Program-made: the position numbers and the translations under genes
From: Cyanobacteria bacterium REEB459
Lineage (GTDB): Bacteria > Cyanobacteriota > Cyanobacteriia > Phormidesmidales > Phormidesmidaceae
NCBI GenBank assembly: GCA_018970085.1
Contig: JAGWXD010000024.1
Location: forward strand, 1 to 44,719
Direction of reading: 5' to 3'
DNA length: 44,719 nucleotides
Shown here: positions 18,558 through 23,860 of the stretch, one piece after another
Position numbering within the stretch: the stretch's first letter is position 1
Layout: each line of letters starts with the position of its first letter
The notes under the pieces: model-generated
The model's database searches: none
Told to the model about the DNA's origin: nothing
The model's input: the letters and a program-made list of their open reading frames with translations, nothing else

Positions 18558-19852
18558 GTGCGGTGCAACTGATTCGTCAGGTGCGACTGGTGGATGGGGT
18601 TACCCAGACAGACCAGGTTAGGGATGTGCTGGTGGAGGCAGGACACATCGTTGCTATCGGTGAGACCCTGGAGGATATTCCTGTTGCCGCTGAGATCATC
18701 GAGGCAAAGGGAAAACTCCTCTTGCCGGGTCTAGTCGATCTTTACAGTCATGCGGGGGAGCCGGGCTATGAATCCCGGGAAACCCTGGCCTCCCTACTGG
18801 CAGCGGCAGCGGCAGGGGGGATTACTCGGCTGGGCGTTTTACCCAGTACCCTGCCGGCGATCGACCATGGGTCTATGGTCGAGGCTCTAATTAACCATCG
18901 TCAGGGGCTGGCTACCACCTGTCCTGAGGCGGCCCTGCCCCACCTCTATCCCTGGGGGTGTCTCACCTCGGGTGCTCAGGGGACCCAGATGGCTGCCCTA
19001 GACGAGTTGGCTGCAACCCCGATTGTGGGGTTTGCCGACGATCAACCAATTCCTAATCTGCTCCTGGTGCAGCGATTGCTCCAGTATCTCCAGCCCCTGG
19101 GTAAACCCCTGGCGCTGTGGCCCTGCGATCGCCAGCTACAGGCTGGAGGGACAGCCCGGGCCGGTGCCTTTGCCCTGATCTATGGCCTGGTGGAAGACCC
19201 ACCCACGTCTGAAACCAGTGCCCTGGCAGCCCTGCTGGAATGTGTCGCCCTGACTGGCACCCCGGTTCACCTGATGCGGGTGACCACCGCCCGGGGAGTG
19301 GAGTTGCTTACCCAGGCCAAGGCCCAGGGGCTGCCGATCACCGCCAGTACTCCCTGGATGCATTTGGTCTTTAGTAGCCGTGACCTGGCTGGCTACGATC
19401 CAGACCTACGACTGGATCCGCCTCTGGGGAACCCCGAAGATCAAGGGGCCCTCCGCCAGGGGGTGAAAACCGGAGTGATTGACGCCATCGCCATTGATCA
19501 CACCCCCTACACCTATGAAGAAAAAACCGTCAGCTTTGCCACCGCTCCCCCCGGTGCCATGGGTTTAGAACTGGCCTGGCCAGTTCTCTGGCAAACCCTG
19601 GTGGTTAACGGTGACTGGTCTGGAGTAGATCTGGTGCTGGCCCTCAGTACTCGCCCGGCCCAGTGCTGGCACCAGCCACCCCCCACTCTGCAGCCGGGGC
19701 AGCAGGCCGAAATGATTTTGTTTGACCCGGCTCCTCGGTGGCTAGTGACGGCCCAATCGCTGAAATCTCTGGCCCTGAATAGCCCCTACCTGGGTCAGAC
19801 AGTTCAGGGTCGCATTCTCCGCCGTTGGGTCCCCCACCGCCAACCCTGCTAA
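18554..19852 (+). CDS. Dihydroorotase-like protein, metal ligands mostly lost
   Basis: The 432-aa sequence follows type I dihydroorotase end to end (PGLVDLYSHAGEPGYESRET near 58-77, VGFADD at 158-163, IDHTPY at 314-319, LDPPLG, APPGAMGLELAWPVL). By hand alignment most metal ligands are changed: the first HxH is Y64-S65-H66, the HCED histidine is Pro190, and the histidine of the CHVST motif is Arg242. The DxxP aspartate (D315) and the acidic pair at 162-163 remain. It is therefore probably not a working zinc dihydroorotase. Inactive dihydroorotases are known to scaffold aspartate transcarbamoylase in Pseudomonas; such a role here is only inference. GTG start lies within the phosphatase stop (4-nt overlap). 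Its own stop overlaps the typA stop by 4 nt. Confidence 0.85.
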   Translation: MSAVQLIRQVRLVDGVTQTDQVRDVLVEAGHIVAIGETLEDIPVAAEIIEAKGKLLLPGLVDLYSHAGEPGYESRETLASLLAAAAAGGITRLGVLPSTLPAIDHGSMVEALINHRQGLATTCPEAALPHLYPWGCLTSGAQGTQMAALDELAATPIVGFADDQPIPNLLLVQRLLQYLQPLGKPLALWPCDRQLQAGGTARAGAFALIYGLVEDPPTSETSALAALLECVALTGTPVHLMRVTTARGVELLTQAKAQGLPITASTPWMHLVFSSRDLAGYDPDLRLDPPLGNPEDQGALRQGVKTGVIDAIAIDHTPYTYEEKTVSFATAPPGAMGLELAWPVLWQTLVVNGDWSGVDLVLALSTRPAQCWHQPPPTLQPGQQAEMILFDPAPRWLVTAQSLKSLALNSPYLGQTVQGRILRRWVPHRQPC

Positions 19853-21639
19853 CGTTTTACCAGCTTCTTCATCAGTTTTCGCAGCCGAATCGATTCGGGG
19901 GTAATTTCCACCAGTTCATCGGGGCCAATGTATTCCAGAGCCCGCTCCAGGCTCATTTCCTGGGGGGTTTGCAGTTGCACCAGTTCATCGCCGGTGGCGG
20001 AGCGGTGGTTGGTGAGCTGTTTGGTTTTGCAAACATTCAGCTCCAGGTCCTGGGGTCGGTTGTGTTCCCCCACAATCATGCCCTTGTAAACCCGGGTGCC
20101 AGGGGTGATGAAAAAGATGCCGCGATCCTCGGCGTTCTTCATAGCATAGAGGGTAGACACCCCTTCCTCAAAGGCGATCAGTACCCCATTATGGCGGGCT
20201 TCCACATCGCCGCTGAGGGGGCGGTAGTCAAGGAAGCTATGGTTCATGATGCCCTCTCCGCGGGTCAGGCGCATAAACTCGCCGCGAAAGCCAATCAGGC
20301 CCCGGGCTGGAATTACAAACTCCAGGGTGGCTCGCCCATCGCCAAGGATGCGCATGTCCTGGAGTTCCGCCCGACGCTGACCGAGGCGCTCCATACAGCC
20401 CCCTACCCCCTCCTCGGGCACGTCTAAAATCAGCAACTCGAAGGGTTCGCAGGGCTGGCCATTGACTTCCCGGTAAATCACCTGGGGCTGGGATACCTGG
20501 AACTCGTAGCCCTCCCGCCGCATGGTCTCAATTAAAATGCCCAGGTGCAGTTCCCCCCGACCAGAGACGGCGAAGCGATCAGGGGAGTCAGTGGGCTCTA
20601 CCCGCAGGGCCACGTTGGTTTCTAATTCCCGCATCAGCCGATCGCGCAACTGCCGGGAGGTGACAAAGCTACCCTCCTGCCCAGCGAAGGGGGAGTCGTT
20701 GACCACAAAGGTCATCTGCAGGGTGGGTTCATCCACCTTGATCAGGGGCAAGGCCTGGGGGTTGGTGGGGCAGGTGATGGTTTCGCCGATGTTGGCATCG
20801 GCAAAGCCTGCCACTGCCACTATTTGACCGGCACTGGCTTGGGCAATCTCAATCCGACGCAGTCCGTCAAAGCCAAGGAGTTTGGTAATCTTGGCCTTCA
20901 CCAAACTGCCATCCTCTTTGATCAGGGCGGCCTGCTGGTTGCCCTGGATGGTGCCGTTGTGGATCTTGCCAATCACGATCCGGCCCAGATACTCGGAGTA
21001 ATCCAGGGTGGTTACCTGCAGCTGCAGGGGCTTATCAACATCCCCCACTGGCGGGGGGACATGGTCAAGGATGGCCTCAAATAGGGGTTTGAGGTCCTCG
21101 CTCTCGTCCTCCAACTGCAGCTTGGCAAAGCCCGCCATACCGGAGGCAAATAGATAGGGGAACTCGCACTGGTCATCGTCCGCCCCCAATTCCAGGAAGA
21201 GATCCAGCACCTTATCGACGGCAGTGTGGGGTTCGGCTTGGGGGCGATCGATTTTGTTGATCACCACAATCGGCCGCAGCCCCTTTTCCAGGGCTTTTTT
21301 GAGTACGAAGCGGGTCTGGGGCATGGGCCCCTCGTTGGCGTCGACGATTAAAATACAGCCATCCACCATACCCAGCACTCGCTCCACCTCACCACCAAAG
21401 TCGGCGTGGCCGGGGGTGTCAACGATGTTAATCAGGGTGTCCTGGTAGCGAACGGCGGTGTTCTTGGCCAGAATGGTGATGCCCCGCTCCCGCTCTAGGT
21501 CGTTGGAGTCCATGACGCAGTCCGGCACCTCCTCCCCCTCCCGAAACACCCCGGATTGCTTGAGCAGGGCGTCCACCAGGGTGGTTTTGCCGTGATCAAC
21601 GTGGGCAATAATGGCGACGTTACGAATGGGGAGGGTCAT
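19849..21639 (-). CDS. typA: Ribosome-associated translational GTPase TypA/BipA
   Basis: The 596-aa product has the EF-G-like layout: G domain with AHVDHGKTT (12-20), [22 protein letters not shown]; then domain II, an EF-G-III/V-like part with [19 protein letters not shown], and the BipA-specific C-terminal domain. TypA binds 70S ribosomes and is needed for ribosome assembly and stress responses. Length and motifs are standard. ATG at 21639; no clear Shine-Dalgarno site. Tail-to-tail with the dihydroorotase-like gene, the two stop codons overlapping (19849-19852). Confidence 0.97.
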
Positions 21640-21873
21640 GGGTAAAGGGGGAACCTGGGGTAAAAATGGGCGAGAAGTTTTAACAATTGTAGCCCAGGAT
21701 GGGCCGCCTTGGCGTGGATACCCCAGCCTGGCGGTGAATCAGAGAGCCCGATTTATCAGTTGGGCTCAAGGACGCTTAAGCATCAGCCATAGCAAGGGGT
21801 TGGGGCGGGATGGCCGCTCAGTTACTATTTTTTGTAGGCAGCAGGCCCCGGTAATCCTTTCAGGGCTGATCCC

Positions 21874-22113
21874 TCAGTTCGTTGGCAATGCTAAGGTCTT
21901 CTCTGCCGCGCTCCATAGAGCGGTCTCCTGAGGCGATGGGTTGGATGTAGACCGCTTAGACAAAATTTCAATCCCTCTTTTAAACTGTTCTTGAGTAATG
22001 GTTCCTGAGGGAGTGGCCTGGCCCTCTACCTTGATTGAGTTTGCTTCCCATTCACAATTCGACTTAATTAACGCTGTGGCTACCCCTACTCCTACCCCTA
22101 TTCCTGAAACCAT
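21874..22113 (-). CDS. Possible small protein, head-to-head overlapping DUF3146
   Basis: A 79-codon frame whose sequence looks protein-like after residue 14 (KSNCEWEANSIKVEGQATPS, then ITQEQFKRGIEIL and a PSPQETALWSAAEKTL tail). I do not recognise a named family. The N-terminus GIGVGVGVAT is encoded by a simple CCTACC-like repeat shared in antisense with the N-terminus of the opposite gene. It lies between typA (same strand, 234 bp away) and the divergent DUF3146 gene, whose 5' end it overlaps by 38 bp if GTG 22076 is used there. It could be a truncated remnant. Confidence 0.5.
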   Translation of the reverse strand: MVSGIGVGVGVATALIKSNCEWEANSIKVEGQATPSGTITQEQFKRGIEILSKRSTSNPSPQETALWSAAEKTLALPTN

Positions 22114-22348
22114 CGCCTACGTTCGCATTACCTACCAGTCCTGGAGCCAGGGAAAAATCGAGGGGGAAGTTCGAGCCAGCAGCTATGAATGGCAATTTCA
22201 GTGGTGTTTCCGTCAGGGGTACCTGCGGGTTGACCCCTCCCTGGGCAGGGCTCTAATTACCGAACCCCTGAGCCGTTTTCTGGAGCGCTTTGACTACCAG
22301 TTAGAGCCCGGTGGGGATTACTCCTTTACCATTCGAGCTAAGCTTTAG
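22076..22348 (+). CDS. DUF3146-type small protein
   Basis: The 90-aa product contains YVRITYQSWSQGKIEGEVRA and ends in LERFDYQLEPGGDYSFTIRA plus KL, a pattern I recall as the cyanobacteria-restricted DUF3146 family, which has no known function. I take GTG at 22076 as start, giving a short TPTPTPIP leader before the conserved part. The frame is open upstream to ATG 21998, but that would run deeply antisense to the opposite small gene. No good ribosome site was seen for either start. It is convergent with ureD (64 bp between stops). Confidence 0.7.
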   Translation: MATPTPTPIPETIAYVRITYQSWSQGKIEGEVRASSYEWQFQWCFRQGYLRVDPSLGRALITEPLSRFLERFDYQLEPGGDYSFTIRAKL

Positions 22349-22406
22349 CGGCGACCGCCTTAGCGTTGTCGTTAACATCCGCCGCCGTTGTCAGGCCTAC
22401 CAAGGG

Positions 22407-22428
22407 CTGGCCCTAGGCCTGGGGCCAG
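22407..22428 (-). terminator. Hairpin over the ureD stop
   Basis: CTGGCCC (22407-22413) pairs with GGGCCAG (22422-22428) around an 8-nt loop. The ureD stop codon (22413-22415) lies in it. No U tract follows, so it may end or stabilise transcripts rather than act as a classical terminator. Confidence 0.4.
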
Positions 22429-23258
22429 ACTCGCGGCACTAGAGCGGGTCGACCCAGATACCAGGGTCGCAGCGTCTGCCACAAATCAATTAACCACTGC
22501 CGGGCCAGGCTGGTAGACCCACCCCGATAACGGCACAGCAAGCCGGATTGGAGCCGGGTTAGACCTACCTGTCCCCTGCCTGAGCCCAGCGATCGCAACT
22601 GGGTCAGTTGCTGGTCAGACAACTCTATTCCCACCAGGACCAGGCTGGCCACCACCGGTTGTCCCCCCAGACCATTCACACTGTCGAGGGCCACACTACC
22701 CCCCAGCAGAGCTTGACGGTCAAGCCATAGGGGTTGACGGCCTTGCCAGACCTCCAGGGCCGACTGCCAATGGCCCTGATTAAAACGCTCGCCCCGGGCA
22801 GTGCGTCCAAACCGGGTGATTTCCCAACCACACCAGATCGAGTGGGGGGCCAGGTCCACCCGTAAATGCTGGCGATAGTGGGCCTGATCGAACACAATGG
22901 TTTCCTGGGGAAACCATTCCAGACAGGTCTGGGGGGCCAGGCTGAGGGTAGTGGTCTGCTCCGCCCAGGTCTGGCCGCCGTAAACCTTACTGGCGGCGGC
23001 GCTGGTAACCAGGGCCTGGCTGTGCGCTTGCAGGTGCAGATCAATAGTCAGGCGATCACCTGCCACCATCCCGCCCGCCGTATGCATCAGTACGCTATGG
23101 CATAGATCTAGCCCTTCGGGGTAAAGGGGACGCTGAACCCGCAGGGGAGCCTGGGTATAGGTCTGGGTAGGGCGACAACTCCCCTGGGTCGATGTGTAAA
23201 CCAGACGAGCACTGCCCAGCCAACCTCTGGGGGAGGGTGAGGTAACACTGAGCGTCAC
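22413..23258 (-). CDS. ureD: Urease accessory protein UreD
   Basis: UreD (UreH) with UreF and UreG delivers nickel to apo-urease. The 281-aa product shows the family core: TQAPLRVQRPLYPEG, LCHSVLMHTAGGMVAGDRL, LVTSAAASKVYG, LEWFPQETIVFDQA and WEITRFGRTARGERF. The open frame reaches a TTG at 23318, but GTG at 23258 forms a GTGA overlap with the stop of the DUF3318 gene and gives a normal-length protein starting MTLSVTSPSP, so I prefer it. No ureABC, ureE, ureF or ureG lies beside it in this window; the structural genes must be elsewhere if urease is made. Confidence 0.93.
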   Translation of the reverse strand: MTLSVTSPSPRGWLGSARLVYTSTQGSCRPTQTYTQAPLRVQRPLYPEGLDLCHSVLMHTAGGMVAGDRLTIDLHLQAHSQALVTSAAASKVYGGQTWAEQTTTLSLAPQTCLEWFPQETIVFDQAHYRQHLRVDLAPHSIWCGWEITRFGRTARGERFNQGHWQSALEVWQGRQPLWLDRQALLGGSVALDSVNGLGGQPVVASLVLVGIELSDQQLTQLRSLGSGRGQVGLTRLQSGLLCRYRGGSTSLARQWLIDLWQTLRPWYLGRPALVPRVWPQA

Positions 23259-23860
23259 AGATAACCGCCAGGGGCAAACGCCTCCGATCTCCCCGCCTGT
23301 GCCCTCAGGCTCTGACAACGCAACAATTCATTCACATTCAAGACCGCTCGACCCTCCAGGCCCGGCACTGCTTCAATCGCCTGAATCAGGGCCCTGACTG
23401 CCTCGGTTTGGGAGTAACCACGGCGCTGAGCTACCTGCACAGCCCGCTCATCGGCCGCTACTTCGATCTGAGGCCCTCGTACCCCTCGCCAGATCTGCCA
23501 ACCCGCCAGAGCAGTGGCACCGCCCGCCGCCAGTACCCCCACGGCATCGGCTTGGAGCAGCTCAACGCAGAGGGCTAGCAAACCGGCTCCAGCCATGGCC
23601 TGATACCAGTTGGGCTGGAGTAAGTTGGCCAGGGCCACCCAGCAAATCGAGCGCAAAAACAGTAAATCTCGCTGGGGAACGGCTAATTCTTGCCAGAGCT
23701 CAAGGTTAAGGGTAACCGTATGACTCTGATGCCATGGCCGGGGAAACTCTGCTTTGATCACGTCAGTTTGACGATCACTTAGGACCAGTTTGGTTTTCAT
23801 ACGGGCCGAGGCCGGCATGAGTTCCTTTAGCCGAGTAATTTCAGCATTAGGGTTGACCAC
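23255..23860 (-). CDS. DUF3318 membrane protein
   Basis: A 201-aa protein matching the cyanobacterial DUF3318 pattern: NPNAEITRLKELMPASARM (3-21), a central part with AEFPRPW and RDLLFLRSICWVALANLL, two probable membrane segments around residues 80-122, and QRRGYSQTEAVRALIQAIEA. The C-terminal tail (LNVNELLRCQSLRAQAGRSE) is longer and unassigned. Function unknown. Start is GTG at 23860 with GGAAG 9 nt upstream. Its stop overlaps the ureD GTG by 4 nt, so both are translated from one mRNA. Confidence 0.85.
   Translation of the reverse strand: MVNPNAEITRLKELMPASARMKTKLVLSDRQTDVIKAEFPRPWHQSHTVTLNLELWQELAVPQRDLLFLRSICWVALANLLQPNWYQAMAGAGLLALCVELLQADAVGVLAAGGATALAGWQIWRGVRGPQIEVAADERAVQVAQRRGYSQTEAVRALIQAIEAVPGLEGRAVLNVNELLRCQSLRAQAGRSEAFAPGGYL

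Follow-up and report, generated by a model that had tools for sequence, protein, structure and literature searches.

Antisense overlapping genes have been reported in E. coli O157:H7, where they were reported together with RNA-seq and ribosome profiling (e.g., PMC9927249, PMC5960689). A locus of Cyanobacteria bacterium REEB459 recalls these genes in having a minus-strand frame that lies antisense to a known gene and lacks homologues. It is unlike them in that the frame is known from sequence alone, and in that its composition and length fit chance. The known gene, on the plus strand, belongs to the DUF3146 family, which has been described as being of unknown function and widespread in cyanobacteria (PMC13131479). 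We have analyzed this pair of frames in its window (the whole stretch of DNA under study, 44,719 nucleotides long; Table 1). Very probably only the plus frame is a real gene, the minus ORF being a chance frame, and the two do not form a true overlapping gene pair.

Table 1. Positions of the two frames, of associated sequence elements and of neighboring ORFs in the window.
Feature	Position	Strand	Remarks
596-aa ORF	19849..21639	-	neighbor of the DUF3146 locus
Decayed left end of an element, most likely IS256/Mutator-type	21849..21977	-	edge at 21977 approximate
Minus ORF, 79 aa, very probably a chance frame	21874..22113	-	no family or homologue; non-coding codon usage; frame not kept
TAATGGTTCC, putative -10 region of the DUF3146 promoter	21996..22005	+	diverged form of a genus-conserved block
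DUF3146 gene	22076..22348	+	likely start GTG 22076; PF11344 match, starts of relatives compared
12-bp tandem repeat, 2.2 copies	22080..22105	+	TRF score 45; within the first DUF3146 codons
UreD-like urease accessory protein	22413-23318	-	PF01774, 9.5e-58
DUF3318 protein	23255-23860	-	PF11780, 3.5e-50

Both frames are present as given in the preliminary description. The plus frame has ATG 21998 and GTG 22076 as possible starts and closes at 22348; the minus frame runs from ATG 22113 to its stop at 21874, a length of 79 codons. With GTG 22076 as the plus start they overlap by 38 bp (22076-22113), again in agreement with that description. On the left the locus is bordered by a 596-aa ORF, which we take to be a TypA/BipA-like GTPase. 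On the right the listed UreD-like and DUF3318 ORFs share 64 bp; the UreD-like ORF starts with TTG, and its true start may lie further in. A search of the whole window against Rfam gave no match at the gathering score.

The DUF3146 gene and its start

The plus product was thought to be of the DUF3146 type, and it is: it matches PF11344 at 2e-42 over the whole profile (positions 1-80 of 80; 143.1 bits against a cut-off of 22). Matches to the family occur in 52 of 57 genomes, the own genome counted. NCBIfam gave no match for any of the five proteins submitted, the DUF3146 product included. Codon usage was scored with a model built from the 24 long ORFs of the window (at least 200 aa), a training set that thus scores itself (mean 0.211, lowest 0.098). 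A further 49 ORFs of 79 aa or more in the window lie across one of these long ORFs and serve as shadow ORFs; their mean score is -0.009, but the best of them reaches 0.244, as high as genes, so that the score divides genes from chance frames imperfectly. Read from GTG 22076, the DUF3146 gene scores 0.233. The gene is an ordinary one for a cyanobacterium and has no assigned function.

To judge the start, we compared it with 80 loci for relatives, the best of 171. Going 5' from the conserved core, the first ATG or GTG met is a GTG at 67 of the 80 and an ATG at nine, four loci having neither, and at those 67 the GTG sits 5-9 codons ahead of the core. The start of the DUF3146 gene is therefore likely to be GTG 22076, a codon of the kind found in most of the family. 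The possibility raised earlier, that both genes use odd starts, does not apply to the plus gene as far as the kind of codon goes, GTG being the nearest start in the great majority of related loci. The window departs from the family in two respects: GTG 22076 is 10 codons from the core, and the protein begins with a TPTPTP run, neither TPTP nor PTPT being found in the N-terminal stretch at any of the 80 loci.

The run is encoded by the CCTACC-like repeat, which, as first described, reads as TPTPTPIP on the plus strand and GIGVGVGV on the minus strand; six other arrays in the window outscore it in TRF. At 23 of the 24 other loci of the genus the distance from GTG to core is 6 codons, and the window exceeds it by 4 codons, or 12 bp, which is exactly one period of the repeat. 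This coincidence suggests that growth of the repeat may have overwritten the original GTG and moved the start four codons upstream to GTG 22076. In the DNA alignment of 22 of 30 loci the GTG of the relatives does fall inside the repeat, and the best DUF3146 match among the relatives (L003) also lacks a GTG at that site. The same facts would, however, follow from the insertion of 12 bp ahead of the core, after a GTG that itself did not change, and the spread of 5-9 codons in the family indicates that drift of a free N-terminal tail would suffice. Both an insertion after the GTG and an upstream move of the start are plausible on these data; a shift driven by the repeat in the second sense is possible, if on the whole somewhat doubtful. 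Such a shift is compatible with the minus frame being a chance ORF and does not compete with that reading. It was also proposed that one of the genes had lost its original 5' end by repeat expansion. There is no sign of such a loss, and what survives of the proposal is the plausibility of a small shift of one period linked to the repeat.

In L003, the 24th of the other loci of the genus, the DUF3146 frame offers no ATG, GTG or TTG anywhere from the upstream stop to the core, perhaps owing to an indel in a low-coverage assembly or because the start is unusual. L003 and another of the loci analyzed, L068, apparently belong to one contig of 3564 bases, from Leptolyngbyaceae cyanobacterium M65_K2018_010.

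The upstream region and the decayed element end

The 596-aa neighbor was not found in 29 relative loci by tblastn (1e-5), the flanks available being about 1.5 kb at most and some being ended by contig ends; the intergenic region is therefore not comparable end to end. A blastn search with window 21640-22110 against 30 DUF3146 loci (E<=1) matched the window itself only, and the likeness upstream is accordingly drawn from a multiple alignment and a pattern count. The alignment covers 22 of the 30 loci (all except L007, L009, L010, L014, L017, L029, L030 and L031). A block of the form TAT[CG][GT]TACC occurs 81-132 bp ahead of the core at 23 of the 30 loci, comprising 23 of the 24 other loci of the genus; in single-base shuffles the pattern, which was picked after the alignment had been viewed, was found in 17 of 6000. 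At 19 of the 23 loci it is preceded by GGTAGACC. The window itself has no match to the pattern and carries the diverged TAATGGTTCC instead. This block is possibly the -10 region of the DUF3146 promoter.

ATG 21998 sits within this likely -10 block. A DUF3146 protein that starts there would contain the repeat, and the overlap with the minus frame would grow to 116 bp. The frame is open from this ATG, an in-frame ATG lies near the same place in one relative (L016), and the 26 extra codons score 0.128, between the means of shadow ORFs and genes. Most related loci, however, have no open extension to an ATG, their nearest start being the GTG described above, and since the block is read as a -10 region, ATG 21998 is quite unlikely as the start. 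We retain GTG 22076.

A sigma-70-like site is present on the plus strand at 21957-21986 (TAGACA and TAAACT with a spacing of 18; mean 0.4 in shuffles). It is the sole promoter-like site in 21600-22450, points at DUF3146, and is located in and beside the end of an insertion element that adjoins the upstream region. The GGTAGACC block of the relatives is absent from the window around this site, and because it is missing there, the element end may have replaced the -35 region of DUF3146.

The element end was recognized by a DNA search for repeats of the window over 26 genomes of the genus. The own genome (3.24 Mb, 99.84% completeness) is the smallest of these; the other 25 range from 3.4 to 7.3 Mb, and several are incomplete. 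Window 21849-21978 is repeated at four other places in the own genome (contigs C68, C94, C93 and C36) with 73-78% identity, and shorter matches occur in three of the other 25 genomes: G001 and G002 have one each and G016 has five. C94 and C36 each hold a copy of about 330 bp, as does C68 at its contig end, while C93 and C47 hold pieces. When inverted, the right ends of the C94 copy (26 bp, 88%) and the C93 copy (23 bp, 91%) match the left end in C36. A 44-aa frame, MSRRRRDVSIPDELVDELLKDYREPADLLGESGIIQQLTQFDVS, which has no Pfam match of its own, comes directly after the left end in the C94 copy. At a locus of G001 (L033) the matching end is followed, 56 bp on, by an ORF that matches Transposase_mut (PF00872) at 2.5e-64, and the sequence around the start of this ORF is similar to that of the C94 frame (MPRRKQ..., followed by SPEDILGESGLLKQLTQ in a different frame). 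The own genome has five PF00872 matches (two in C35 and one each in C92, C88 and C79), none on the contigs that bear the repeated ends. The assignment to the IS256/Mutator type is therefore taken from L033 and from the resemblance between the starts, the C94 frame having no Pfam match and the PF00872 matches of the own genome lying elsewhere.

Judged by these alignments, the minus strand of the window most likely carries what is left of an IS256/Mutator-type element, a decayed left end with its edge near 21977. It resembles this group in that it aligns with repeated element ends, of which the one in L033 borders a PF00872 ORF. It is unlike a complete member in that neither a transposase nor a right end was found with the remnant at 21849-21977, a single decayed end being recognized.

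The IS256-like copies in C68 (L066), C94 (L061) and C36 (L062) have a palindromic stretch of about 49 bp in common. The same palindrome occurs twice on contig C63, in opposite orientation (L065:404-456 and L065:1159-1210), where it flanks a 157-aa ORF. Its appearance is that of a small palindromic element lying inside the older IS256-like one.

The minus-strand frame

The preliminary description saw a ITQEQFKRGIEIL protein on the minus strand. The searches made for relatives of this product found none at the cut-offs applied, an outcome that the preliminary description had itself named as refuting its reading. It matches neither Pfam nor NCBIfam, and among 57 genomes, 25 of them other members of the genus, it was found at E<=0.01 in its own genome alone. 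In GTDB contigs 89 stretches fit a pattern, none of them a relative at 1e-3, and in plasmids and phages the best hits reached only E=0.1 (one plasmid record and two phage records, the latter two accessions of one phage). The frame is also not kept in the corresponding DNA of relatives. In the register set by the DUF3146 core it closes after 2-49 codons in all 28 relatives examined (L030 omitted); none of the 28 has an ATG at the position of the minus start, where GTG is common.

Both frames had been considered protein-like, which holds for the plus frame with its PF11344 match and does not hold for the minus frame. The minus ORF has a codon score of -0.069, lower than any of the 24 training ORFs and than any of the 136 slices of its length taken from genes; when the stretch opposite DUF3146 is excluded, the score is -0.015. 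Among the 49 shadow ORFs, 31 score at least as high as the minus ORF. The length of the frame is within chance expectation. Of 1000 dinucleotide shuffles of 21640-22360, 400 contained an ORF of at least 79 aa; with shuffling restricted to 21640-22075, 293 of 1000 contained one on the minus strand.

Transcription of DUF3146 on the plus strand would begin from a promoter near 21996, with GTG 22076 as the likely start of translation. The minus frame is very probably a chance product of three parts. Residues 1-13 are antisense to the first DUF3146 codons, where the repeat provides the antisense strand with a stretch free of stops, and residues 14-45 are antisense to the region upstream of DUF3146. 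Residues 46-79 lie in the decayed IS256-type end, which the ORF enters at residue 46 and reads in a different frame from the transposase remnant (MERGREDLSIANELRDQP followed by a stop). The ITQEQFKRGIEIL stretch thus runs from DNA upstream of DUF3146 into the element end, and as a protein it has not stood up. We infer that the minus frame is not expressed.

The alternative is that the minus ORF is an expressed young gene specific to the strain, which arose de novo out of the strand opposite the 5' region of DUF3146 together with the IS end. For such a gene an absence of homologues is expected and unusual codon usage is possible, and the frame is intact over 79 codons from an ATG. Antisense overlapping genes with expression data are, moreover, on record in E. 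coli O157:H7, as reported in the papers cited at the outset. The non-coding codon usage, the length expected by chance, and the lack of conservation and of a family nevertheless speak against it, and the gene would have to lie opposite what is likely the promoter region of a conserved one. We consider an expressed young gene hardly credible. The same very low weight is given to its product, a species-specific small protein: its gene would overlap DUF3146 at the start by way of the repeat, and its C-terminal part would derive from the IS256-type end, taken up out of frame.

With the minus ORF read as a chance frame, the case in itself matters little. It illustrates that a frame free of stops, and with the look of a gene, can be left behind by a short repeat together with a decayed IS end. 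In annotating genomes of this group, the start of DUF3146 is to be placed at the GTG near the core, and the minus frame is best left uncalled unless expression data support it.
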